NCBI GenBank assembly: GCA_018812265.1
Contig: JAHJDG010000092.1
Coordinates: 1-49,490 of the forward strand
Origin: a bacterium
GTDB taxonomy: Bacteria > Electryoneota > RPQS01
Direction of reading: 5' to 3'
DNA length: 49,490 nt
Part shown: one piece after another, positions 7,940 to 41,039 of the stretch
How the letters are laid out: each line of letters opens with the position of its first letter
Position numbering within the stretch: position 1 is the first letter of the stretch
Made by a program: the position numbers and the translations under genes
The notes under the pieces: model-generated
Told to the model about the DNA's origin: nothing
Database searches by the model: none
Seen by the model: only the letters and a program-made list of their open reading frames with translations

Positions 7940-7985
7940 GTGCGCTACATCCCCGCCCGCGAACCTCATCCGGAGACCGCCCCAT

Positions 7986-9338
7986 ATGTCCGACACCGAC
8001 ACTACAAAGTCATCCCCACCCGAAGGCGAAGCTCCGGCCGAGAAGCCGCTGACGATTCGCGAGAACCTGCAGATCCTGTTCGGGGCCTCGCGGGCCTTCT
8101 GGCTGGTGAATCTGGTCAATTTCGGCGACGGCATCGCGTATTTCGGGATTCTCAATCTACTTACGCTGTACGTTCATGATTCGGTTGGTTTCTCCGATCA
8201 TCTGACCGGCATTGCAGTTTCGACTTTCACGGGTCTGGTCACGCTGTTCATGTTCGGCGGTGGATTCGTCTCGGACAAACTGGGCGTCAGGCGGGCGCTC
8301 ACACTAACTCTGATTATCCTGCTGGTGGGACGCGTGATGCTGGTCTCCAGTCCGGCCGCCGGCGCGCTCTCGGGAGTGTTGTTGTGGATGTCGCTGGTCA
8401 TCATGGGCTTCGCCGAGGGAATCATCCAACCCGCGCTCTACGCCGGTGTCAAAGAGTTTACCGATCCGCGCACGGCCACCATCGGCTACAGCATTCTCTA
8501 CGCGATCATGAACCTCGGCATCGTAGCCGAAGCCGGAGTCTCGCCGTTTATCCGCGCCGAGGGCGGGATCACCGGAGTATTCTGGGTGCTGATCGGCGTT
8601 TCCGGGCTGATGCTCATCGGCAACGCGACTCTGTTTTCACGCCGAATCGAAAAACGTGACCGTGTACTGGAATATGTAAAAAAAGAAAAAACCGCCGACG
8701 ACACGCGCACGCTGTGGCAGAAATTCCGTGCCCTGCCGTTCATGGACAATCGCTTCATCTTCTTCATCTTCATTCTGCTGCCCGTGCGCACGTTGTTCGC
8801 TCACCAGTTCCTGACGCTTCCCCACTACGTGATGCGCTGCTTCCCCGAGGCGATCGGCGCGCGCTATGAGTGGTTTCAGGGACTCAATCCGCTGATCATC
8901 GTGATCTTCGTGCCGCTCATCGCCGCCCTCACGCGCAAGGTAAACGTGGTCAAGATGATGATTATCGGTACGTCGGTCTCGGCCATAACCACGTTCATCC
9001 TCGTTCCCGGTCCGCATCTTTCCACCTTGATCCTGTACGTGGTCTTTTTCTCGCTGGGCGAAGCGATCTGGTCGAGCCGGTTCCTCGAATACGTGGCCGA
9101 CCTCGCTCCCGCCGGGCAAGTGGGAGCCTACATGGGACTGGCGGGGATTCCGTGGTTCATGGCCAAGTTCACCACCGGCTGGTATTCGGGCGCAATGCTG
9201 GCCAAGTTCATTCCCGCCAGCGGTCCGCACGACAGCGGCACGTTGTGGCTGATCTATGCGTTCATCGCGATGATTACGCCCATCGGTCTGCTGATCGGAA
9301 GAAAATGGGTGCAGCGGGGAGTCGAGTACAAGAGATAG
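7986..9338 (+). CDS. Major facilitator superfamily transporter, distantly peptide-transporter (POT)-like
   Basis: 450 residues and about 12 membrane helices. I take ATG 7986 because the hydrophilic N-terminus then leads straight into the first helix, and an upstream TTG at 7938 would fall in the predicted -10 box. The segment GYSILYAIMNLGI resembles the helix-4 motif of proton-coupled oligopeptide transporters, and the start FGDGIAYFGILNLL is aligned with their first helix. The ExxER motif of true POT proteins is missing there (residues read VNFGDG), so peptide transport is doubtful. The cytoplasmic loop after helix 6 is charged (EKRDRVLEYVKKEK). It is followed by the selenoprotein gene 57 bases on, with a hairpin between them. 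Confidence 0.85.
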   Translation: MSDTDTTKSSPPEGEAPAEKPLTIRENLQILFGASRAFWLVNLVNFGDGIAYFGILNLLTLYVHDSVGFSDHLTGIAVSTFTGLVTLFMFGGGFVSDKLGVRRALTLTLIILLVGRVMLVSSPAAGALSGVLLWMSLVIMGFAEGIIQPALYAGVKEFTDPRTATIGYSILYAIMNLGIVAEAGVSPFIRAEGGITGVFWVLIGVSGLMLIGNATLFSRRIEKRDRVLEYVKKEKTADDTRTLWQKFRALPFMDNRFIFFIFILLPVRTLFAHQFLTLPHYVMRCFPEAIGARYEWFQGLNPLIIVIFVPLIAALTRKVNVVKMMIIGTSVSAITTFILVPGPHLSTLILYVVFFSLGEAIWSSRFLEYVADLAPAGQVGAYMGLAGIPWFMAKFTTGWYSGAMLAKFIPASGPHDSGTLWLIYAFIAMITPIGLLIGRKWVQRGVEYKR

Positions 9339-9353
9339 AGCGGTGATCTTCAG

Positions 9354-9382
9354 TCGGAGCGGGCGCAAATCCGCTCCGATTC
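9354..9382 (+). terminator. Hairpin between MFS and AhpD-like genes
   Basis: TCGGAGCGG (9354-9362) pairs perfectly with CCGCTCCGA (9371-9379) around an 8-base loop. Only TTCC follows, so it may attenuate or separate messages rather than stop transcription fully. It ends 16 bases before the ATG of the next gene. Confidence 0.5.
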
Positions 9383-9395
9383 CATAGGACGGATC

Positions 9396-9938
9396 ATGCC
9401 TTACATTCAGACGATTGAACCGGAAGAGGCCGAAGGCAATCTGGCGGATGTCTACTTGGAGATTGCGCGGACTCGCGGTCGGGTAGCCAACATCTACAAG
9501 CTGCACAGTCTCGATCCCGATTCGCTGCGCGCACATCGCGATATGTATTTCGCGGCGATGTTCTCCGAGGGAGGATTGTCGCGGCTCGAACGGGAGGCGA
9601 TTGCGGTGGCGGTGTCGGTGGCCAACGATTGCCACTATTGACTGCACCACCATGCCGACGCGTTGCGTCAGGCCGGTGCATCCGAAGATTTCGTGCAATG
9701 TCTGATAGACGGCGAGGAACCCGACGATCAGCCGAAACGCCTGCAGCGACTCGTCTATTTCGCCCGCAAGCTCACGCTCCTACCGAATTCGATGAAAAGA
9801 CAGGACGTCGAGGACTTGCGCATCTGCGGGCTGAGTGATCTGGAGATTCTGCAGGCCGTGCAGATCGCCGCCTACTACAACTACGTCAACCGCTTTGCCG
9901 ACGCACTGGGCGTGGAAATCGAGAAGGATGAAGGATGA
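9396..9938 (+). CDS. AhpD-like peroxidase-related selenoprotein (CxxU; TGA at 9639-9641 read as selenocysteine)
   Basis: One frame of 181 codons with a single in-frame TGA, giving 180 residues if it is decoded. Before the TGA the protein reads REAIAVAVSVANDCHY; after it, LHHHADALRQAG and a full C-terminal half (ARKLTLLPNSM, LRICGLSDLEILQAV, YYNYVNRFADALGV). This matches the AhpD/carboxymuconolactone-decarboxylase fold of peroxidase-related enzymes, where cysteine normally occupies the TGA position (CxxC). Spacing of E67, C79, U82 and H86 equals that of Glu118, Cys130, Cys133 and His137 in mycobacterial AhpD. So the redox pair would be Cys-Sec. A SECIS-like hairpin starts 1 base after the TGA. 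ATG 9396 has AGGACGG upstream. The likely role is reduction of peroxides or of a thiol partner in the cytoplasm. A nonsense mutation is the alternative, but the conserved frame after the TGA argues against it. Confidence 0.88.
9643..9680 (+). promoter_or_regulatory. Candidate bacterial SECIS element
   Basis: Immediately after the TGA, TGCACC (9643-9648) pairs with GGTGCA (9675-9680). Inside, GCC (9654-9656) pairs with GGC (9671-9673), and GACGC (9657-9661) pairs with GCGTC (9665-9669), with one bulged A at 9670. The apical loop is GTT (9662-9664). A guanine at the start of the apical loop, about 20 bases from the UGA, fits the known bacterial SECIS pattern bound by SelB. Confidence 0.75.
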
Positions 9939-20585: not shown

Positions 20586-23500
20586 CTACCGTTCCGCGGG
20601 GCTCCAAACCGGAACCGTAAAGCCGGAGTCGTCTTCAATGCGCAGGGACGGATAGGGATCGAATCGGGCGATGACGTGGTACCAGTGAACGCCGTCGGGG
20701 ACCGGTCGGTGAATGAAGCTTGTCAGTCTTGTCTTGCCGATCTTCTTCCAGATTGTGCCGGGCTGTCCGGGCGGGCTGTTGTCAGTGTAGACTTCGTAGC
20801 CGTCAACGGCGATGATATTGCCCATCGTATCAAGAATTACCGGGGACCAGTGCAGGTGCGCTTCAAGCGTGTCGTTGACGGTCTTGACCTCGATGATCAG
20901 GTCCGTGACGGCCTGAGGAACACCGTACCCGATGGGAACAATATGCGATACCGCTTCGGCCGCCGTTTTCATCGGTTCCACGTTGCCCACGTTATCCGTG
21001 GCAAGGGTGAAAAATCCGTACGTATGACCGTGCTCGCCGGTATAGACCCATGGGGTGTTCGTCAGTCCGGTCTCCTGTACCTCGAACGGTCCGTCGTCCG
21101 CGGATACATACACGGCGTAATCCTTGACTCCCGATCCGCCCGCGTCATCAGTCCCCGACCATGACACCACAATCTGGGTTTCATTCACAAGCGTGAGGTT
21201 CGAATCCACGCGGCTTGCCGGCGGACCGGCGTCTATTGTGTTGAAGATCGGCGGCGTATCAATCGGGTCGTTCACGTCGAAGACGATGCGTGCCTGCGCA
21301 TGAATCGTGTCCCCGGTTTGGCTGGTTGAACGCGGCACAATCGTGTAGGTGACGAAACCCTCGCCGCGGTGCGTGATCGAATCGTTGATGGCCAGAAATC
21401 CCACCAGCGGATTGATGGGCGGCTCACCCGTCGCCGGATCAATGGATTCAAAGACCCAGAACGCTTCGTTGGTATTGACGTCAATTCCCGCCGTCACGTC
21501 AATGAAAAGCCCCAGGGAATCCCGAACGTCGAGTCGTTCGGCATAGTAGGCTCGATTGGCCGGCGGGGTGAAAACGAAATTGCCAAATCCGAACGCGCCC
21601 AGCCGGAAGCTGCTCGAATTCAGATCCGGATCGAGCGGCTGCGTGATGTGCACGACCTGTGCCGGCGCCGTGGCCAGCGTTGGATCGTTCTCGAACCGGA
21701 TCGTGTAGGGTAGAATCTGATCCCGCGCAACAAAGTTGCCCTCGCCATAGCCCGCCGGACCAATGATGTCGTTGGGATCTCGTGATCTTATCACATCTGC
21801 ACACAGCTGGCGTTGGACCAAGCCGCCTAAACAGACTGCCGTACCCAAGAAATCAGGTCCCAAACGTCTGCCTCGCATTCGCTGTCTGGTAATCTTGCCT
21901 TTCACATCAATTCCTATGAAGCACTGCACAACATCTGTAATGTCTGGAGGACTTTCCTCAGGCATAAACAGACCAACCACACATGCATTGTAGAAACCGT
22001 ATGCACAGAAAGGTACCAGCACAGTCGCGAGAGGCACACTCAGAATACCGAAACTCACAATTGTTCCCTTGACAATTGCAGTGTAGGCAGCAATACAGGT
22101 TACGACGGCAAATCCGCAATCGGCAGCGCGTAGAGCGAATCCGGCGATTTCACAGACGGTTTCCGCGAAATTCCGCTGAAACATGATCCCAGCTTCCGTT
22201 GTCATGAATGAGTCAGCCCAAGCAACGAGATGCTCGATTGTCTCCCGATCAACAGCGTCAGAATCCAATAGTCCGAGTGCAATATAGCCTTGAAAAACAG
22301 TGTCAACAAACGCCACTGTGTCATCTAACAGGGCGACCAGTTGTTCCGGAAGGCTATCTTGGTTCTCGGCCAGAAGCATCTGCTGAAGCTGTAGAATTCG
22401 TATCGTCTGAGCTGCAAGGTAGCCATCAATATCTAGCGCTTTGGCATTAACAGCAAAGGGCTGCAAATCACCCGTGAAATCGGTGATCACTATGTTGCAG
22501 GTCAACAGCTCTCCCGCAGCAACGTCCTTGGCAATCATCGGTACTACCTTGGAGTTACCAATGATAATTGCGTTGTCAGTGTTGTTAGGCACTGAGTCAG
22601 CCATGATATCCGGTATGAGATCTTCACGCATCAAAAACCGTTCAGAGTAGACGCGAATACTCTGATACTGCCCCGTTGAAATCGAAGCGGATACGTATTC
22701 AACGTCCACGTTGGATGTATTCTGAATCGTCACGCTGTACACGGCCGTCCCGCCGGCACGAACGGACCACGGTGCGCTCACGTCATGTGTGGCGCTGTAT
22801 AGGATTCGCGGTTCTACAGTAAAGGCTCCTGGAAGTGTGACGGTAGATCCATCTGGCTTCATGGCTACGATATCGAAGGTGCCCAACGGAACTTGCGGTA
22901 GGTAAAAACGAGCCCCCAATTCGGTGGAATTACGGAACTCGTACACATGAGCGTGTATGAGTGAGTCCGGGGACAACCGCAGCAGAACGTCAGTTGAGTC
23001 GCAGAATCCTGCACCACGAAGAGTGCATGTAACTCTGCCATCCTGACCGCCGTGATCCGGGTCAACAGATAATATCGAAAACGGCATGGCATCCGCAACA
23101 ATACTGTAGTCTGTTGTACTGCCCCGCGCGACCAGCATGAGGTAGTAGTTGCCTTCTTCTGTGGTGGGAATCAACAGTTCTTGATCGGACAAGAACGGCT
23201 GTGCCGCAGCATAATCATGGTCACTGAGTGAAGGAATACGGCCAAAGGCAACATAGAACTCGTTAAAGGAACTCTGCGACACGCCATCGAGGATGACGCG
23301 CAGGTCCAGATCGGCTTCCACCGCGATCCGATAGAAGTGTCGTTCGCTCTGACTGAGATTCCCGTTGGTCGGAACACCCAGCGTCAATTGCGGAACGTCA
23401 ACACTGATGAGCGACGCTGATGCGCCGGTATTGTTGAGATCATCGCTCTCCGGAATGCTGTTGCGGATGTCGGTTCGGACCAGAGCGTGATAGGCTCCGG

Positions 23501-26500
23501 GAGTCACTCCCGGCATGGTGCCGATGATCTCGCCATTTTCTCCCGTTCGGAACGTCTCATTGAGATTCACCAGCGCGTTTACCGTGAGAGTCAGGCCGGG
23601 CGCGATATCCACATAGTGATTCACGTAGCCCAACAGGGCGTCTGTGATGTCCCACGCGGTATCCGGTGAGAAGTAGATCGCATCCCGCAGCCAACCGACC
23701 GCCGGATTGGACCCTTGATTCTGCAACGTCCAAGAGACGGTCACCTGATCGCCGGGTTGCGCGGACGCGGGAAGACTGATCGCCGTTACGATAAGATCGG
23801 AAGGAGGCGGCAACTGGATGGTGATCGCCTCGGCGGCGGTGTTGTTGAGTTCTCCCGTTAACTCGTACTCGTCATCGCGGCTGTCGGTTTTCACGATCAG
23901 GTAGTAGTTCCCGATGAGATAGTACGGGATGGTGACCTGTCCGCTGTCCGAATACGCTTGTCCGGGAATCAGAGCGCCATTATGCGTAAACGTGGCGATG
24001 CGGGTATCCGAGGCGTCAAGCGTCGGATTGGGCGAAACATAGATGGCGTCATACCAGACGGTGCGGATCGTGGGGCCGGTGCCGATGTTCTGCACCGACC
24101 AACGGGCGGTAATCGGTTGGCCGGCGTTCGCCTGAACCGGCATGGTGAAAGCGATGACATCGAGATCGGGCGGCGGGGTCAACTGTACCATCATCGGCGT
24201 CGCGCTCGCGATCACGTTGTTGGACAGATCAATATCGCCGATCTGGTTGTTCGCATCCGTTCGGGCGATAAGATAGTAGTTCCCGGAAATCCCATTGGGT
24301 AGGGTGACGACACGATCTCGCGTATAGGTCTGGCCGGGAGAAAGCACGCCGGTTCTCTGGAGGGTTGTTAGGAGAAGATCCGTTCCCGTGTTCAGGATGG
24401 CATCCTGAGAAAGATAGACCGCGTCCTGCCAGCTACCGACAATCGTCGGCACCGTACCCACGTTTCCAACCGTCCACGCGACCGTTACACTCTGCCCGGA
24501 AAATGCCGAATCCGGTCCCGTGACGGATTGAGCCGCGATATTCACCGGATATGGATTCACCGTCAGCGGCTCACTGCGCAGAGTGTTGTTGTTCTCAGCA
24601 CCATACTCGTATACTTGATTTTCGGCGTCGGTAGTGACGTACACGTAGTACGTCCCGGAGATGTTGGATGGTACCGTACCGATCACCGTTTCGACATACG
24701 AGCCCATCACGGCCAGCGGGCCCGTATGAATGCGGGTCGCGAGCAGCGTTGCGCTGCCGGGATTCCAGGAAGAATTCGCCGACAGATAGACCTTATCGGT
24801 CCAAACGGAATTCGGAGTGCCGGCCAAGCCGTCGTTGATCACTCCATAGGTGACCGAAAGACTTTCGCCCGCGTTCGCGCTTGCCGCGACACTGATCTGA
24901 TGGACGCGCAGATCCGGCCAAGGCGTCAGGTAGATCTCCATGGACCCGGAGCTGCGGCCGATATTATTGTCTTCGAACTGGTATTCGTAGATCTGATTGT
25001 CGGCGTCCGCGGCAACGTAGACGTAGTAGTTCCCCGATATACCCTCGGGCAAGGACACGGTGGCCTGAGCCGGGTACGATGCGGACGGAGCCAGCGCACC
25101 CGCATGGGTCTGACTCTGCAGGACAACAACGGAGTCCGGATGATACACCGGGCTGCGCGACAGGTACACTCGATCCACCCACGGCCCGACGCCCGAGGAT
25201 CCCGGGCCTTGATTCAACACCATCCAAGCAATAGTCACCGGCTGGCCGGAATTGCCGGTTGCAGGAAGCGTGATGTTGGATACGACTAGATCCGGCCACG
25301 GTGAAAGCGTAACCGCAACGGCGGCATCACTCCGGGTGACGTTATTGCCGTCATAGAGATGTTCGAAGACTTGGCCAAGAACGTCGGACCACACGTAGAC
25401 ATAATATGTGCCGGAAATCCCATGAGGAATCAACACGTTGGCTTGGGCCGCATAAGTCCCTGACGGCGCAATCGTCCCGCTTCGGCTGATCGTGGCGAGT
25501 GGGATCGAAGCGCTGGAATCGAAGGTCGCTGAAGTTGACAAGAAAATCCGATCATTCCACGTTGTCTGTGGAACGGAACCCGGACCCTGATTCTGTACGG
25601 TCCATTCCACGCTGACATTCTGTCCCGATCCGGCTGTCGAGGGAGCCGTAACCGAGGTTACGACAAGATCCGGCCAGGGCGCTGCCGAAACCTCAACCGG
25701 CAGCGAACTTCGCCGAACGTTGTTATCCTCGGAGGTGTGTTCGAACACTTGATTATTGTAGTCCGTCTTCACATAGATGAAGACGCTTCCAAAGAGAGAC
25801 GACGGGAGATTGGCCGTCGCCGCTCGGGTGTAGGAAGAATCCGGCGGCAGAGCTCCCGTCCGAGAATAGCTGCCGAGAACCGTCGCCGTGGCAAGGTTCA
25901 GCGCCGTATCAAGCGACGCGTACACGCGATCGTTCCAGGAATTCTCAAAGGGCGTTCCGGGTCCGTTGTTCAGCACCGTCCACTGGATCGAAAGGGGCTG
26001 CCCGGCCGTACCGGACGTCGGGACAACGAGGTCGCTTACGATCAGATCCGGCGGCGGGGTGAGGGTGACCGTCAAGGTATCGCTGTACTCGGTGTTGTTC
26101 TGTTCGAAGACGAATTCATAGACCGAATTTCCAATATCGGTCTGGACCAGAAAGTAGAAAGCGCCATAGATCGTCTGAGGCAAGGTTACGATCCTTGAAC
26201 CTTGGTACGAACTGTCCGGCAGAAGAATGCCGACATGCTGAGTGGCACCGAGCGCATGGTCATCGCCGCTCAGCAAAGTATCTCGCGACAAATACACCGC
26301 ATCGGACCAGGTGCCAACGATGGTCGGCCCCGTTCCGCGATTTTGTACCGTCCACGTCATGCTGACACTCTGGCCGGAAAAGGCATTGGCCGGCGAGATG
26401 ATGTTGGTAACCTGCAAATCCGGAGGAGGCGTGAGATTCACGTGCATCGGATCGTCGTTTCGGCCCAGGTTATCATTCTCGCTGGACTCCTGCACGTGGC

Positions 26501-29500
26501 CGCTGAAGTCGGTGCGGGCGAATACATAGTAGTCGCCGGTAATGCCCTGTGGCAACGTGAACGTGGCCGAGTTCGTGTAGCTCGCTCCCGACGGCAAGAA
26601 ACTCACGTTTTCATACTGACCGAGATACGTAACCAGTTGGCCATTGTATTCGGGTTGCGGCGAAAGGTACAGGCGGTCATACCATACCGGGCTGGAGGTC
26701 GCCGCACTTCCCGTGTTGGTGACGATCCAGCTCACTTGGTAGGGTTGCCCCGAGTAGGCTTCGGGGGGAACCTGAACCTGCGAAACGGTCAGGTTGGGCA
26801 GCGTTCGAACCCTGAATGACCAAACCGGACCCGGGGCTTCTCCGTAGAGATTGGTGCTCACGATCCGCCAGTTGTACATGCGGCCATATTGTAACGAAGT
26901 GCCGACTTGGTAGCTGATCTCGGTGAGGTTTGCAGCGATGGGGCTGGTCGGTTCCGGCAGCGTGTCCGGCCACAAAAATACATTGTAGCGCTCGGCGCGG
27001 GGCGCCGGATACCAGGAAAGTCGCGGTGTGCTGGACACAAACGTCTCACCATCAACCGGCACCGGATTCGAGGCGGTTCCCGGCAATTGTTCCGGGAGGG
27101 GGGAAGGGATGAAGAAGTCGGCATCGGACGTGTCGGCAAGAAGCGGGAAATTCACGCTTTTTACTCGGATTCGGGCTCGATCCGTTGCCGGATACGAGGG
27201 CGTCCACGTGTAGAGGCCCGTGTTGGGCGCATTGGCGGTGAGCGTTGCCCAAGTTCCTTCCGGGAATGCACGGTTCAGCTCGATACGAATGGTACCGGTC
27301 AGATTCTCGGAAGTCCACATTATGTCATACGGAATGCCCATCGCACAACTCTCACCGCCGACGGGCTGTACCAGTGTTAGAGATCGTCTCGCTATTGAGA
27401 AGTCGGCATCCGTGGTATCGCCGATCCACGGGTAGGAGACTCCCACGATGCGCACACGGGCGACGCCCGCAACGGGTTCCGAAACAACCCACAGCTGCGA
27501 ACCATCATTGGGGGTGGAAGCGGAAACCGTCTCCCACTCTCCGGCGGGATAACCACGGTTGAGTTCAATCCGCACATTGCCGGGCAGATTGGCGGAAGTC
27601 CACGTGATGGCGTAGGTATCGCCAATAATCCACGTCTCGCCGCCGTTGGGAACCGAAACCGCGAGCGACCGACGGCCAATACTGAAGTTCGCATTTGACG
27701 TGTCGCCCACGAAGCTCGACGCAACACCGGTAACGCGAATTCTTGCGCTCGACGTAGTTGGTCCCGCCACCGGCCAATAGAAACTTCCGTTGTCGTCGGT
27801 GTTCTCGGCAATCGTTTCCCATACGCCCGACGGGTAAGACCGGTTGATCTCTATGCGCACGTTCTCGCTGATATAGCGTGAGTTCCAGCGGATGTTGGCG
27901 GTGTCCTGAATAAACCACGATTCCCCGCCGTTGGGCTGAATCACGGTGATTCTGGGAATGCATGCTCTCCCGCCGGAATCACCGGCTGCGACGGCACCCT
28001 CACCACAGGTATTGTAGGCCACCACACTGTAAAGATATCGGACGTTTATCCCGGCGGATGTGTCATTGAGTGCGGTGACGTTCGGCGGCGTCACGCCGAT
28101 TCGGAGTCCGTCACGCCGGACCTGAAAACTGTCCTCTCCGCTGATATTGTTGTTCCAGACGATCCGCACAAGTTCACAGCTATCGTCGGAGGCGACGATG
28201 CCCGTAACCAGACCCAGGGGAGCCATCCGTCGTCCGGAGTCTTGCCGGAGGCTTCCCAGGCCGCAGCTGTTAGCGGCAACAATTCCGAAGGAATACGTTC
28301 CCGCTGGGGGAGAGTCGGCGTAGCGCACGGTGTTCGCAGGAAGACTATCCAACAACTCGCCGTTTCGATACAGTAGATACCAACCTTCGTTGGTGAGATC
28401 CGTCCACGTGCAGATAATGCTGTCGCAGCGATTGTCGGAAGCGGAGAAACTCGATACCGTCGCGGGAAGACGGATGACCGAACCTGCGTTTGACTGGCTG
28501 AGCGGACCGTTGCCGCAAGCGTTGAAGGCCTGGACGGTATAGGCATATGACACACCGGACGCCGCCGTGGTATCCTGGAAGACCGTGACGTCCATGCCAA
28601 CGGTATCCAGTCGCGTCCCGTTTCGCAGGATGACGTAGCCCGTCTCATGGCTTAGATCATTCCACGTAACCGTGACGGAGTCGCAACTGACGGAATCCGT
28701 CGCCTGAACATTGCCCACCTGCAAAGGCTCGCGAATGCGCGAACCCAAATCGAAGACCGATTCCGGACCGCTGCCGCAGGGATTAGTGGCGACGATCCAG
28801 TAGCGATACTCCACCCACGGAGTCGCGGTTGAATCGAGGAAGCTTGTCTCGTTCAGTGGCACCGTGGCCATCAAGGAAGGGGAACTGCCGTCGTAATTCG
28901 CTCGCCAGACCTGATAGGCCGTCGCATCAAGGGATGAGTTGTCCCACTGAATCTGCGTGACGTGACACAACCCGTCCGTCGCTAAGATCTGCTGAATCCC
29001 GGTCGGTTCGTGCCAGGCCTTCCCGGAATCGGCAAGGGAAGGCTCTCCTTCCCCGCATTGAGCGCTCCAACCGACTACCGTATATTCGGCCGGCTCACGC
29101 TCGGTAGTGACGTGGCGGAACACCGTGTAACCGGGAAACGACGGTCGCCCGACGGCTCCGACCCGAACTCCGTCCCGTTTCACCAGGAACGAGTCCAGTC
29201 CGATGTTGGTGGAGTACTCCCACGAAATCCTCACCGAATCGCACAGATCATCGCTCGCTTGCACGCCGAAGGCGGTGGGGGGATCGGGCAAGCGACTTCC
29301 CAGCCTCCATGACCGTGGGGAAACCGATGACGAGCTTGACTCGGGACATGTTCGTCTCGCCTCGATTCCGTAGAGGAACGTCCCTACCGGAGCCTGTGTG
29401 TCCACGAAAGAATCCGGCAACAATGCGGACCGAAGCGCAATCATCACGTCGTCCCGATAGATGGCGATCGTATCATTGCCGACGCCGGAATCGGGATAAC

Positions 29501-30932
29501 TCCAATTCAGATGGATTCCATCGCACCGGTTGTCCGAGACCAACAGGTTCAATGGTCGGGGGGGAGCTACGCACGATGAGAACACGCTGTCAATACATGT
29601 CCACGAGGACATGATTGCGTCCTGTACACCGGCATGTAGCACGAAGACGTTCGATTCCCAAGTGAGGGAAGACGTCCCCACTCGCAAATAGAAACGCGGC
29701 GGCACAAGAAGATAGCCCACCGAACTGAACATGATCTCCGAGATAAACTTCCCCGGCCCGATCTCAAGGCTCTGGCCGTTCAGCGCGAACGTGTTATAGT
29801 TGACCGTCCCTTCCGGCCCGGTAATGCAATCGGGAGGAAAAAGGCACACCTCGGGCATCGGATCCTCGGCGTCGGGACCGTCGGAATCGGTATCCCAGAA
29901 GATCTGGATGGGTGTGCCGTCCGGCAAGGGAGAACCGCCGCCACACTCGTCGGTCAAAGGTGACACCGTATGGATCAGACGAGCCTGAAAAGGCAAGCTC
30001 TCACCCGAACAGGATGCCGGTACGCACGTCCAGGAAGTGATCTCTACTTCTTGCGGGCCGGATAGAAGGGTGAAGACATTGGACTCCCAACGCTCCGTCG
30101 GAAGGCAAATCCGCAGATAGTAGCGGGGCAGCGGCGGTAGCCTATTCGCCGAAAAGAATCCGGTCTCAGTATAAAAATAGCCCTCGCCAAGACCCAGAAC
30201 TCCTCCGTTCATGGTGAACTCGTTGAAATTGACCGTGCCCGCCGGACCTGAATAACAGAATGGAGGATCGGCGCACAGCTCCGGCCGCGGATCACCGAGA
30301 TCGGGACCGTCAAGATCATTATCCCACAGAATCTGTACGACGGTGCCATCCGGTAACGGGGTGATACCGCCACAACCATCATAAAGCGGAGTGGGACGAT
30401 AATAGTAGAGCTCTGCATAGAAGCCCGGGTTTTCCCCTTGGCAGAGTTGCTCCATACAGGTCCAAGACCCAATGACAATATCTTGAACGCCGGAATTGAT
30501 ATTGAATACGTTGGAAACCCAATGCAAATTCGGCAGACAGACTCGAAGATAGTACCGGGAAGGCGAAGGGATTGCACCGACTCCGATCCAGGAAGTCGTG
30601 ACGTTGAAATAACCTTCACCATAGTTCTGTTCTCCGCCGTTCGCAAGGAATTCATTGAAGTTGACGGAGCCGGAGGGACCTCCGATGCAGGTAGGAGGAT
30701 AGTCACACAGTACGGGGCGTGGATCATCGGTATCCGGCCCGTTCCCGTCATTGTCCCACACGATCTGAATTACAGTGCCATCCGGAATCGGATTACCGCC
30801 GATACAGAGATCACGTATGGGCTGCTGACCGCTCCCGTCGTTGAAGTACATGATATGCGCTTGGAACGACTGTGCCTGCGATACGGCTGCAAGCAAAACA
30901 ACGAGAAACGCTGTCAGAGAAACGGACTTCAT
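20586..30932 (-). CDS. Giant repetitive surface protein (3448 residues; FN3, PNGGE and CARDB repeats)
   Basis: ATG 30932 follows GAGGT at 7 bases and starts a signal peptide (MKSVSLTAFLVVLLAAVSQAQ). Approximate order: three related ~145-residue units (22-452; PLPDGT...ILWDNDLDGPD, YYLRICLP, SWTC); six FN3-like units (455-985; DxCDSVxxxW); three PNGGESW...ITWTS units (990-1280); one FN3 unit; nine CARDB units of about 120 residues (1380-2510; PDLVVxxVxxPxxAxSGQ, WTVxNxGxG, GxYYVYVxTD); PPC- and IPT/TIG-like units; a hydrophobic Cys-rich segment of lower GC (about 2745-3045); and a region with NDIIGPAG, LPYTIRFEND, GLFIDVTAGIDVNT and VVSWSGTDDAGGSGVKDY known from large bacterial exoproteins. 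It ends in an FN3-like domain without a recognisable T9SS signal. It is probably an adhesin or structural surface protein. How it leaves the cell is unclear. Confidence 0.9.
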   Translation of the reverse strand: MKSVSLTAFLVVLLAAVSQAQSFQAHIMYFNDGSGQQPIRDLCIGGNPIPDGTVIQIVWDNDGNGPDTDDPRPVLCDYPPTCIGGPSGSVNFNEFLANGGEQNYGEGYFNVTTSWIGVGAIPSPSRYYLRVCLPNLHWVSNVFNINSGVQDIVIGSWTCMEQLCQGENPGFYAELYYYRPTPLYDGCGGITPLPDGTVVQILWDNDLDGPDLGDPRPELCADPPFCYSGPAGTVNFNEFTMNGGVLGLGEGYFYTETGFFSANRLPPLPRYYLRICLPTERWESNVFTLLSGPQEVEITSWTCVPASCSGESLPFQARLIHTVSPLTDECGGGSPLPDGTPIQIFWDTDSDGPDAEDPMPEVCLFPPDCITGPEGTVNYNTFALNGQSLEIGPGKFISEIMFSSVGYLLVPPRFYLRVGTSSLTWESNVFVLHAGVQDAIMSSWTCIDSVFSSCVAPPRPLNLLVSDNRCDGIHLNWSYPDSGVGNDTIAIYRDDVMIALRSALLPDSFVDTQAPVGTFLYGIEARRTCPESSSSSVSPRSWRLGSRLPDPPTAFGVQASDDLCDSVRISWEYSTNIGLDSFLVKRDGVRVGAVGRPSFPGYTVFRHVTTEREPAEYTVVGWSAQCGEGEPSLADSGKAWHEPTGIQQILATDGLCHVTQIQWDNSSLDATAYQVWRANYDGSSPSLMATVPLNETSFLDSTATPWVEYRYWIVATNPCGSGPESVFDLGSRIREPLQVGNVQATDSVSCDSVTVTWNDLSHETGYVILRNGTRLDTVGMDVTVFQDTTAASGVSYAYTVQAFNACGNGPLSQSNAGSVIRLPATVSSFSASDNRCDSIICTWTDLTNEGWYLLYRNGELLDSLPANTVRYADSPPAGTYSFGIVAANSCGLGSLRQDSGRRMAPLGLVTGIVASDDSCELVRIVWNNNISGEDSFQVRRDGLRIGVTPPNVTALNDTSAGINVRYLYSVVAYNTCGEGAVAAGDSGGRACIPRITVIQPNGGESWFIQDTANIRWNSRYISENVRIEINRSYPSGVWETIAENTDDNGSFYWPVAGPTTSSARIRVTGVASSFVGDTSNANFSIGRRSLAVSVPNGGETWIIGDTYAITWTSANLPGNVRIELNRGYPAGEWETVSASTPNDGSQLWVVSEPVAGVARVRIVGVSYPWIGDTTDADFSIARRSLTLVQPVGGESCAMGIPYDIMWTSENLTGTIRIELNRAFPEGTWATLTANAPNTGLYTWTPSYPATDRARIRVKSVNFPLLADTSDADFFIPSPLPEQLPGTASNPVPVDGETFVSSTPRLSWYPAPRAERYNVFLWPDTLPEPTSPIAANLTEISYQVGTSLQYGRMYNWRIVSTNLYGEAPGPVWSFRVRTLPNLTVSQVQVPPEAYSGQPYQVSWIVTNTGSAATSSPVWYDRLYLSPQPEYNGQLVTYLGQYENVSFLPSGASYTNSATFTLPQGITGDYYVFARTDFSGHVQESSENDNLGRNDDPMHVNLTPPPDLQVTNIISPANAFSGQSVSMTWTVQNRGTGPTIVGTWSDAVYLSRDTLLSGDDHALGATQHVGILLPDSSYQGSRIVTLPQTIYGAFYFLVQTDIGNSVYEFVFEQNNTEYSDTLTVTLTPPPDLIVSDLVVPTSGTAGQPLSIQWTVLNNGPGTPFENSWNDRVYASLDTALNLATATVLGSYSRTGALPPDSSYTRAATANLPSSLFGSVFIYVKTDYNNQVFEHTSEDNNVRRSSLPVEVSAAPWPDLVVTSVTAPSTAGSGQNVSVEWTVQNQGPGSVPQTTWNDRIFLSTSATFDSSASIPLATISRSGTIAPSGTYAAQANVLIPHGISGTYYVYVWSDVLGQVFEHLYDGNNVTRSDAAVAVTLSPWPDLVVSNITLPATGNSGQPVTIAWMVLNQGPGSSGVGPWVDRVYLSRSPVYHPDSVVVLQSQTHAGALAPSASYPAQATVSLPEGISGNYYVYVAADADNQIYEYQFEDNNIGRSSGSMEIYLTPWPDLRVHQISVAASANAGESLSVTYGVINDGLAGTPNSVWTDKVYLSANSSWNPGSATLLATRIHTGPLAVMGSYVETVIGTVPSNISGTYYVYVTTDAENQVYEYGAENNNTLRSEPLTVNPYPVNIAAQSVTGPDSAFSGQSVTVAWTVGNVGTVPTIVGSWQDAVYLSQDAILNTGTDLLLTTLQRTGVLSPGQTYTRDRVVTLPNGISGNYYLIARTDANNQIGDIDLSNNVIASATPMMVQLTPPPDLDVIAFTMPVQANAGQPITARWSVQNIGTGPTIRTVWYDAIYVSPNPTLDASDTRIATFTHNGALIPGQAYSDSGQVTIPYYLIGNYYLIVKTDSRDDEYELTGELNNTAAEAITIQLPPPSDLIVTAISLPASAQPGDQVTVSWTLQNQGSNPAVGWLRDAIYFSPDTAWDITDALLGYVNHYVDIAPGLTLTVNALVNLNETFRTGENGEIIGTMPGVTPGAYHALVRTDIRNSIPESDDLNNTGASASLISVDVPQLTLGVPTNGNLSQSERHFYRIAVEADLDLRVILDGVSQSSFNEFYVAFGRIPSLSDHDYAAAQPFLSDQELLIPTTEEGNYYLMLVARGSTTDYSIVADAMPFSILSVDPDHGGQDGRVTCTLRGAGFCDSTDVLLRLSPDSLIHAHVYEFRNSTELGARFYLPQVPLGTFDIVAMKPDGSTVTLPGAFTVEPRILYSATHDVSAPWSVRAGGTAVYSVTIQNTSNVDVEYVSASISTGQYQSIRVYSERFLMREDLIPDIMADSVPNNTDNAIIIGNSKVVPMIAKDVAAGELLTCNIVITDFTGDLQPFAVNAKALDIDGYLAAQTIRILQLQQMLLAENQDSLPEQLVALLDDTVAFVDTVFQGYIALGLLDSDAVDRETIEHLVAWADSFMTTEAGIMFQRNFAETVCEIAGFALRAADCGFAVVTCIAAYTAIVKGTIVSFGILSVPLATVLVPFCAYGFYNACVVGLFMPEESPPDITDVVQCFIGIDVKGKITRQRMRGRRLGPDFLGTAVCLGGLVQRQLCADVIRSRDPNDIIGPAGYGEGNFVARDQILPYTIRFENDPTLATAPAQVVHITQPLDPDLNSSSFRLGAFGFGNFVFTPPANRAYYAERLDVRDSLGLFIDVTAGIDVNTNEAFWVFESIDPATGEPPINPLVGFLAINDSITHRGEGFVTYTIVPRSTSQTGDTIHAQARIVFDVNDPIDTPPIFNTIDAGPPASRVDSNLTLVNETQIVVSWSGTDDAGGSGVKDYAVYVSADDGPFEVQETGLTNTPWVYTGEHGHTYGFFTLATDNVGNVEPMKTAAEAVSHIVPIGYGVPQAVTDLIIEVKTVNDTLEAHLHWSPVILDTMGNIIAVDGYEVYTDNSPPGQPGTIWKKIGKTRLTSFIHRPVPDGVHWYHVIARFDPYPSLRIEDDSGFTVPVWSPAER
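21790..22700 (-). other. Lower-GC segment coding a hydrophobic, Cys-rich part of the giant protein
   Basis: Base composition shifts visibly here (near 48% GC in sampled lines against well over 55% on either side). The encoded part has no resemblance to the surrounding beta repeats: it is helical, with CEIAGFALRAADCGFAVVTC and GILSVPLATVLVPFCAYGF. It could be an inserted domain acquired separately, possibly disulphide-rich or membrane-inserting. Confidence 0.6.
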
Positions 30933-31533
30933 CTTAGACCTCATTTCCGTTAGGGTGAATGGACGGTCACAGACCCGATACTCAAAGATATTCACCGCAA
31001 TCTCTTCGTATTAACCTAATGGAATGTTTGGTTGGATGGACAAGGAAGGCGTTATTCAGCGTCCAAAGGCATGGAATAGTATGACACAGGATGGGAGAAG
31101 GCGCGCGAGAACACCGAATGGGACTATACCGACATGACCGGACCTATCACCAAGACTGACCCACGTCAAGACGGACTGCGAACAAGCATGTTCCTACGAT
31201 GCATCACCGTATCATTTTAGGCAATTTGAGCGGAGAAACAAGCCAAAGGAGGATAATGCGCAAAGATTCTTCATGAAGGGTGACTGTCGAAAAAGTCTAT
31301 TAAATATGGGAGTCTCTGTGTTGTCGGAATAATAAATACCGGTTTGATAAAGGCTTGTTCCTTGAATTCTCGCGGTTCGGCAGTTGGCGTCCAGCCCGTT
31401 CCGTGAAAAGCGCCTCATGGCCGCTTCCGTGGCGCGTGGAGATAAATAGCGGTTTATGAACCCATTGAACATGCGAGAAGCCCCGACCGGATTGCCGGCC
31501 GGGGCTGTGCTGCCCGCATCGTGTGCCTGTTGA
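30933..31533. other. Intergenic stretch of about 600 bases
   Basis: It holds the 5' region of the giant gene on the right-to-left strand and a terminator-like hairpin at 31479-31506 for the gene beyond. Two similar AATACCGGTTT / AATAGCGGTTT phrases occur about 110 bases apart (near 31335 and 31445). Short open frames have no ribosome site or family likeness. No RNA gene or transposon was recognised. Confidence 0.55.
31479..31506 (-). terminator. Terminator-like hairpin after the DNRLRE protein gene
   Basis: AGCCCCGACCGG pairs with CCGGCCGGGGCT around ATTG, with one mismatch, 28 bases beyond the stop at 31534. The T-run is poor on the minus strand (CTTCTC). Confidence 0.55.
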
Positions 31534-40219: not shown

Positions 40220-40979
40220 ATGGCACAGCATCCCACAATTCGATGGCCGCACGGATCCGTTCTGGCGGCCGTTTTCTTCGTCATCGTGTTTGGTTTGCCG
40301 AAATTCGCGGCTCCGACTCAGAGAAGCACAGTTTTCAACGCGCTCGATGAACCTCTGGGCGACTGTACGATGACTCAGAGTTTCAACCATCCTCCGGGTT
40401 CAGGGCCGTTGTTTATTTCACGCCACTACAGGATTCTGCAGTAGGACTCAGCTATCGTCTGGACAGGATTCGAGCGAGATTCTCCGCAACGCAGACGGAA
40501 GATCGCGCGATGCGCTGGCATGTCTATCGGGAGCGCGCCGAGAGTCCGGGGAAACAGGCTCGGAGTCGCACAAAGAAATCCTTCTTCCCGCAGTTTCGGA
40601 TCCGCCTTAGTGCGATGAGGATCTCTGGATGTGGCTTGAAGTCACGAAGAGCGCCGAGCTGTGGCCAGACGTCCATTACTTCAACGTGTATCGCAACCGG
40701 ATGCCGTCAACTCCGGATCAGACCTGGGTCTCGGATATCACCGACATCCGATTGGGCGGTGGCCCTCGATGCCTTCGCGGCACGGATCGGCTGGGCGTTG
40801 TTCCACCATGGCTGCGCTGCATCCATCTCTGTGACTGGGGCGTTCAATACGTCTGTTGCGACGACCCGGATCTCCTATGGCAGCTCGGCAGGGAATCGGC
40901 ATCACAGTTGACCGAGCCGGAGGTAGCGCTCACGATCCTTTCTTGTGATGAGTGTCCGGCCGCGGGCAGCCAATGCTGA
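40220..40979 (+). pseudogene. Decayed gene for a secreted protein of unknown family
   Basis: A coherent protein can be followed only by changing frame. It starts at ATG 40220 (MAQHPTIRWPHGSVLAAVFF, signal-like) to about 40395, then shifts to AVVYFTPLQDSAVGLSYRLD and WHVYRERAESPG (to about 40560). Next comes ESHKEILLPAVSDPP, a TAG at 40608-40610, and LWMWLEVTKSAELWPDVHYF (to about 40760). The frame of DAFAARIGWALFHHG follows, and last YVCCDDPDLLWQLGRE and VALTILSCDECPAAG. That is at least two, probably four, shifts plus one stop in about 250 codons. It follows the anti-sigma gene by 80 bases and was probably the last gene or target of that module. I do not recognise the family. Poor sequence quality could mimic this, but the nearby genes are mostly intact. 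Confidence 0.65.
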
Positions 40980-41039
40980 TGGAATGGCTGGCGTCTCGAA
41001 AAAGCTCTATCAAGCCAAACCGGAAAAACGGAGGAGACC

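Follow-up and report, generated by a model that had tools for sequence, protein, structure and literature searches.

A predicted AhpD-like, peroxidase-related selenoprotein with turnover at its selenocysteine codon in a bacterium of the Electryoneota

AhpD-like selenoproteins with a CxxU motif (COG2128) were described in 2005 from the Sargasso Sea, with 27 sequences accompanied by SECIS elements (PMC1088965), and in 2008, with a count of 299 in the Global Ocean Sampling data, they were among the commonest marine selenoproteins (PMC2398784). Recent catalogues place these proteins under TIGR01926, with MCB9421940.1 as a reference (PMC13188914, PMC9312934). In AhpD of Mycobacterium tuberculosis, the relay residues are Glu118, Cys130, Cys133, and His137 (PMC3141380). 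The gene described here lies in a stretch of 49,490 nucleotides, all of which was analyzed (hereafter, the window). It is a further member of this known and widespread family, which ranks among the more common selenoprotein families of bacteria, and almost certainly encodes an AhpD-like, peroxidase-related selenoprotein (TIGR01926, CMD fold) in which an in-frame UGA would specify Sec82.

The gene forms one frame on the forward strand, from the ATG at 9396 to the TGA at 9936-9938, with a single internal stop, the TGA at 9639-9641 (codon 82). The sequence-only reading had described a single frame of 181 codons broken only by TGA; translation bears out the single break, but 181 counts the stop, and the product has 180 residues. 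The following features were assigned at the locus:

7983..9338, + strand: MFS transporter gene, directly upstream of the AhpD-like gene; adjacency kept at the same-genus ortholog
9386..9389, + strand: AGGA that may serve as ribosome-binding site, 6 nt upstream of the ATG, by direct reading of the sequence
9396..9938, + strand: gene for the predicted AhpD-like (TIGR01926 peroxidase-related) selenoprotein, 180 residues plus TGA stop, with U82 from TGA
9594..9596, + strand: Glu67 codon, equivalent of the AhpD proton-relay Glu118; at least 90% conserved in the homolog alignment
9630..9632, + strand: codon of Cys79, the C-H-Y-U residue paired with Sec82; invariant in the homolog alignment
9639..9641, + strand: predicted selenocysteine codon, an in-frame TGA at the second CxxC position (residue 82); L024 and at least 102 homologs share the TGA, and the same-genus L021 has Cys (TGT)
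9651..9653, + strand: His86 codon, equivalent of the AhpD proton-relay His137; invariant in the homolog alignment

The interval between the MFS transporter gene and the selenoprotein gene includes an inverted repeat, TCGGAGCGG-N8-CCGCTCCGA, at 9354-9379; in the same-genus genome, the corresponding gap is only ~5 nt.

Translation and the homolog alignment confirm that the internal TGA takes the place of the second Cys in the AhpD-type CxxC motif (C79-H-Y-U82), as had been proposed from the sequence, and the spacing of E67, C79, U82, and H86 (12/3/4), with the residues checked by translation, is that of the M. tuberculosis relay. When the fused protein was searched against AhpD and peroxidase-related families, it matched NCBIfam TIGR01926 ("peroxidase-related") along its whole length with 138.5 bits, well over the cut-off of 81.8 (model positions 2-175 of 178), and Pfam CMD with 66.3 bits. 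The halves encoded on either side of the TGA match one TIGR01926 protein, in agreement with the earlier claim of unbroken homology, and purifying selection acts on both sides: the pN/pS ratio against the same-genus ortholog L021 is 0.31 before the TGA and 0.20 after it, and the ratios against other relatives are 0.30-0.42 and 0.27-0.40, respectively. Given this homology and selection on both flanks, and given that the sole stop hits the family's second-Cys codon (1/180), the placement of the TGA is beyond chance. The gene model is thus corrected where standard annotation would cut the gene into two pieces. The AlphaFold model of the protein, with Cys put in place of Sec, has an all-helical CMD fold (pLDDT 95.7). 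The cut-off of TIGR00777 (alkylhydroperoxidase AhpD, M. tuberculosis type) was not reached (27.2 of 191.95 bits); hence, the protein is not an ortholog of classical AhpD and would be AhpD-like in its working at best.

A genome devoid of sel genes had been named as evidence that would speak against selenocysteine. All four components, selA, selB, selD, and a UGA-decoding tRNA(Sec), are present in the source genome (3.5 Mb, 97.5% complete, 235 contigs). Profile searches identified SelA (540 bits) and SelB (333 bits), and the tRNA-Sec scored 58.5 bits, with the anticodon TCA (UCA in the transcript); these three genes lie within ~17 kb on one contig. SelD (308 bits; L016, G000:C109) carries an in-frame TGA of its own in CAG-U-ASK, the usual Sec site of this protein. 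In-frame TGA also stands at the position of the active-site Cys in an AhpC-type peroxiredoxin (AhpC/Prx; FTFV-U-PTE; L186, G000:C145) and in a thioredoxin-like gene (GWS-U-PAC; L193, G000:C139), so that the genome encodes at least four predicted selenoproteins. In the window, TGA is the normal stop of 9 of the 22 long genes, and no further convincing frame with a single TGA to be read through was found outside the long genes.

The remainder of the window is rich in proteins bearing a C-terminal secretion sorting domain. A 3469-residue protein encoded at 20586-30995 on the reverse strand contains eight CARDB repeats and also matches fibronectin type III. In the region 40450-40980, where frames are broken, one stretch (DQTWVSDITDIRL) resembles a decayed IS3-type integrase; a Pfam search there gave no match.

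Downstream of the internal TGA, we identified one further feature:

9648..9678, + strand: candidate bacterial SECIS hairpin, 20 nt downstream of the TGA, with GACGC/GCGTC as core stem and GTT (9662-9664) as apical loop

According to published rules, bSECIS elements have an apical loop of 3-9 nt with G in one of the first two positions, an upper stem of 4-16 bp, a distance of 16-37 nt from the UGA, and a minimum free energy of at most -7.5 kcal/mol (PMC13188914). The candidate hairpin conforms to these rules, with a GUU loop, a 5-bp stem continued by 3 bp past a bulged A, a distance of 20 nt, and a folding energy of -16.3 kcal/mol for positions 9645-9690, which 3 of 200 shuffled sequences equaled. 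The core stem of the window copy is only moderately unusual, with 9% of synonymous recodings scoring as high; for the stem in L024, the proportion is 0.16%. RNAfold z-scores for a stretch of fixed length (39 nt) discriminated poorly between Sec and Cys genes (mean -0.71 vs. -0.18) and were therefore replaced by a direct count of stem-loops under the published loop rules. By this measure, 80% of the 112 TGA genes, but none of the 18 genes with Cys, Gly, or Ala instead, have a hairpin score above the 95% shuffle level (Mann-Whitney p = 5e-8 for the scores, the genes being related and the cases not independent). Across the family, there is thus a strong hairpin signal at the SECIS place of the TGA-type genes. 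An Rfam search of the window returned zero matches.

When the genome collection was searched with the single protein, relatives were not recovered. A degenerate DNA pattern for N-x-C-x-Y-U-x-x-H-H, applied to 84,980 genomes, yielded at least 116 stretches, at least 102 of which encode homologs with TGA at the Sec codon; among the matches listed, these represent Acidobacteriota, Actinomycetota, Bacillota, Chloroflexota, Gemmatimonadota, Planctomycetota, Neomarinimicrobiota, Zixibacteria, and others. Homologs detected by a profile in 291 genomes show the same mixture of TGA and Cys. The matched parts of the homologs are free of TGA at other positions, rather than showing the random stops that had been named as counter-evidence. 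The sequence-only reading had held that AhpD-like selenoproteins are reported from metagenomes but rare; the former agrees with the literature (PMC1088965, PMC2398784), whereas the latter is contradicted by the pattern scan and by the Global Ocean Sampling counts.

Within a single bacterial family, the codon shows turnover, with Sec, Cys, Gly, and Ala all found at this position. In the same-genus genome, L021 lies directly behind an MFS transporter gene 85% identical to that of the window, a shared position that identifies the two genes as orthologs, and has Cys (TGT), one base from TGA. L022 and L023 from the same bacterial family likewise have Cys. TGA is again found at this codon in L024, which belongs to another genus of that family. 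One genome (G002) carries both a Sec copy (L024) and a Cys copy (L030) of the same protein. In L025 (G006) the codon is GGG (Gly), and in L027 (G003) it is GCG (Ala). Where the SECIS would lie, both genes still have a 5-bp hairpin, and these two hairpins score highest among the non-TGA genes; in G006, which is 88% complete, no SelA or SelB was found above the cut-off. The hairpins hint that L025 and L027 may be decayed selenoprotein genes that have lost Sec. In the tree, the window gene pairs with the Cys ortholog L021 inside a mixed clade, a topology that, for the sequences sampled, fits Sec gains as well as Sec losses in the family. With both Sec and Cys found among the orthologs of one genus, and among the copies of one genome, the family provides a compact natural set suited to asking why a CxxC site keeps or loses Sec.

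That the nearest kin of the window gene has Cys, so that Sec is not conserved between them, is a point against the Sec assignment. The single-base difference from TGT, as well as the fragmentation of the assembly into 235 contigs, of which the window is one, could be taken as signs of an ordinary CxxC gene in which sequencing or assembly introduced the TGA by mistake, or in which a nonsense mutation arose recently. We consider this very improbable, given that TGA occupies the same codon in an independent genus (L024) and in at least 102 homologs from other genomes, that a SECIS-like hairpin is present, and that purifying selection acts on the remainder of the frame, which is intact. The chance that TGA has been reassigned throughout the genome, for instance to Trp, is negligible: in-frame TGA does occur in the AhpD-like gene and in three other genes, but all of those examined fall on known redox Cys/Sec positions and none on a Trp position, and the genome has the Sec machinery with its tRNA-Sec (anticodon TCA). 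Stop usage among the long genes of the window refutes such a reassignment. The Cys-Sec reading is upheld by the family match, the Sec machinery, the SECIS-like hairpin, the conservation of TGA in relatives, and the exchange of Sec and Cys at the codon.

What the selenoprotein does is a separate matter. It might be another redox enzyme of the CMD fold, such as a dehalogenase-like protein or a disulfide reductase, given that the debrominase Bmp8 (6ohi, E = 1.5e-6) is also a structural match, that TIGR01926 members bear only the name "peroxidase-related", and that the neighbors, the MFS transporter and secreted proteins, give no pointer to peroxide stress. This appears rather unlikely in view of the completely retained AhpD relay spacing, the closest folds, which are AhpD and antioxidant proteins, and the Sec-type peroxiredoxin encoded in the same genome. 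A role as a peroxidase or as a partner of AhpC is most likely.

Both the insertion of Sec82 and the peroxidase activity are what we infer from these comparisons. In the proposed mechanism, SelB and Sec-tRNA(Sec) would decode the UGA with the assistance of the hairpin; the Sec82 selenolate, helped by His86 and Glu67, would attack a peroxide or a partner disulfide; and the Cys79-Sec82 pair would reduce either peroxides or a peroxiredoxin partner by way of a selenenyl-sulfide, to be re-reduced by cellular thiols. A doubtful extension of this scheme is that the AhpD-like protein and the AhpC-type peroxiredoxin (FTFVUPTE), both Sec-bearing, form a selenium-based AhpC/AhpD relay, with the codon flipping among Sec, Cys, Gly, and Ala and the Gly and Ala copies being fossils of lost Sec. 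If true, the copies that keep the hairpin would show how Sec is given up.

Comparison with described proteins places the window protein among Cys and Sec forms of a common scaffold. The best PDB matches of the model are AhpD of Deinococcus radiodurans (6k40, TM 0.89) and mlr4105 of Mesorhizobium loti (3c1l), which share the whole-chain fold (TM about 0.86-0.89) at 30-32% identity; both are Cys forms of the peroxidase-related family, whereas the window protein has Sec at that position. The M. tuberculosis AhpD (1GU9) shares the CxxC active site and the Glu/Cys/Cys/His relay spacing, but the window protein has Sec in place of the second Cys and Tyr81 in place of His132, and similarity is low beyond the core. 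The AhpD-related CFYUT (seleno)protein (NF041238) and the GSU3128 family (NF041047) are CMD-type selenoproteins with CxxU as well, and the window protein falls far short of their cut-offs (54 bits against 175 and 25 bits against 110, respectively). The closest counterpart is the CxxU AhpD-like selenoprotein of COG2128/TIGR01926 (MCB9421940.1), likened here by family and description, which belongs to the same NCBIfam family and has the same Sec position and a small-loop SECIS downstream. The present locus adds a well-documented case to this common selenoprotein family, the function of which has been assigned by similarity alone, and differs from the reference in that its bacterial family shows rapid turnover among Sec, Cys, Gly, and Ala at the codon.
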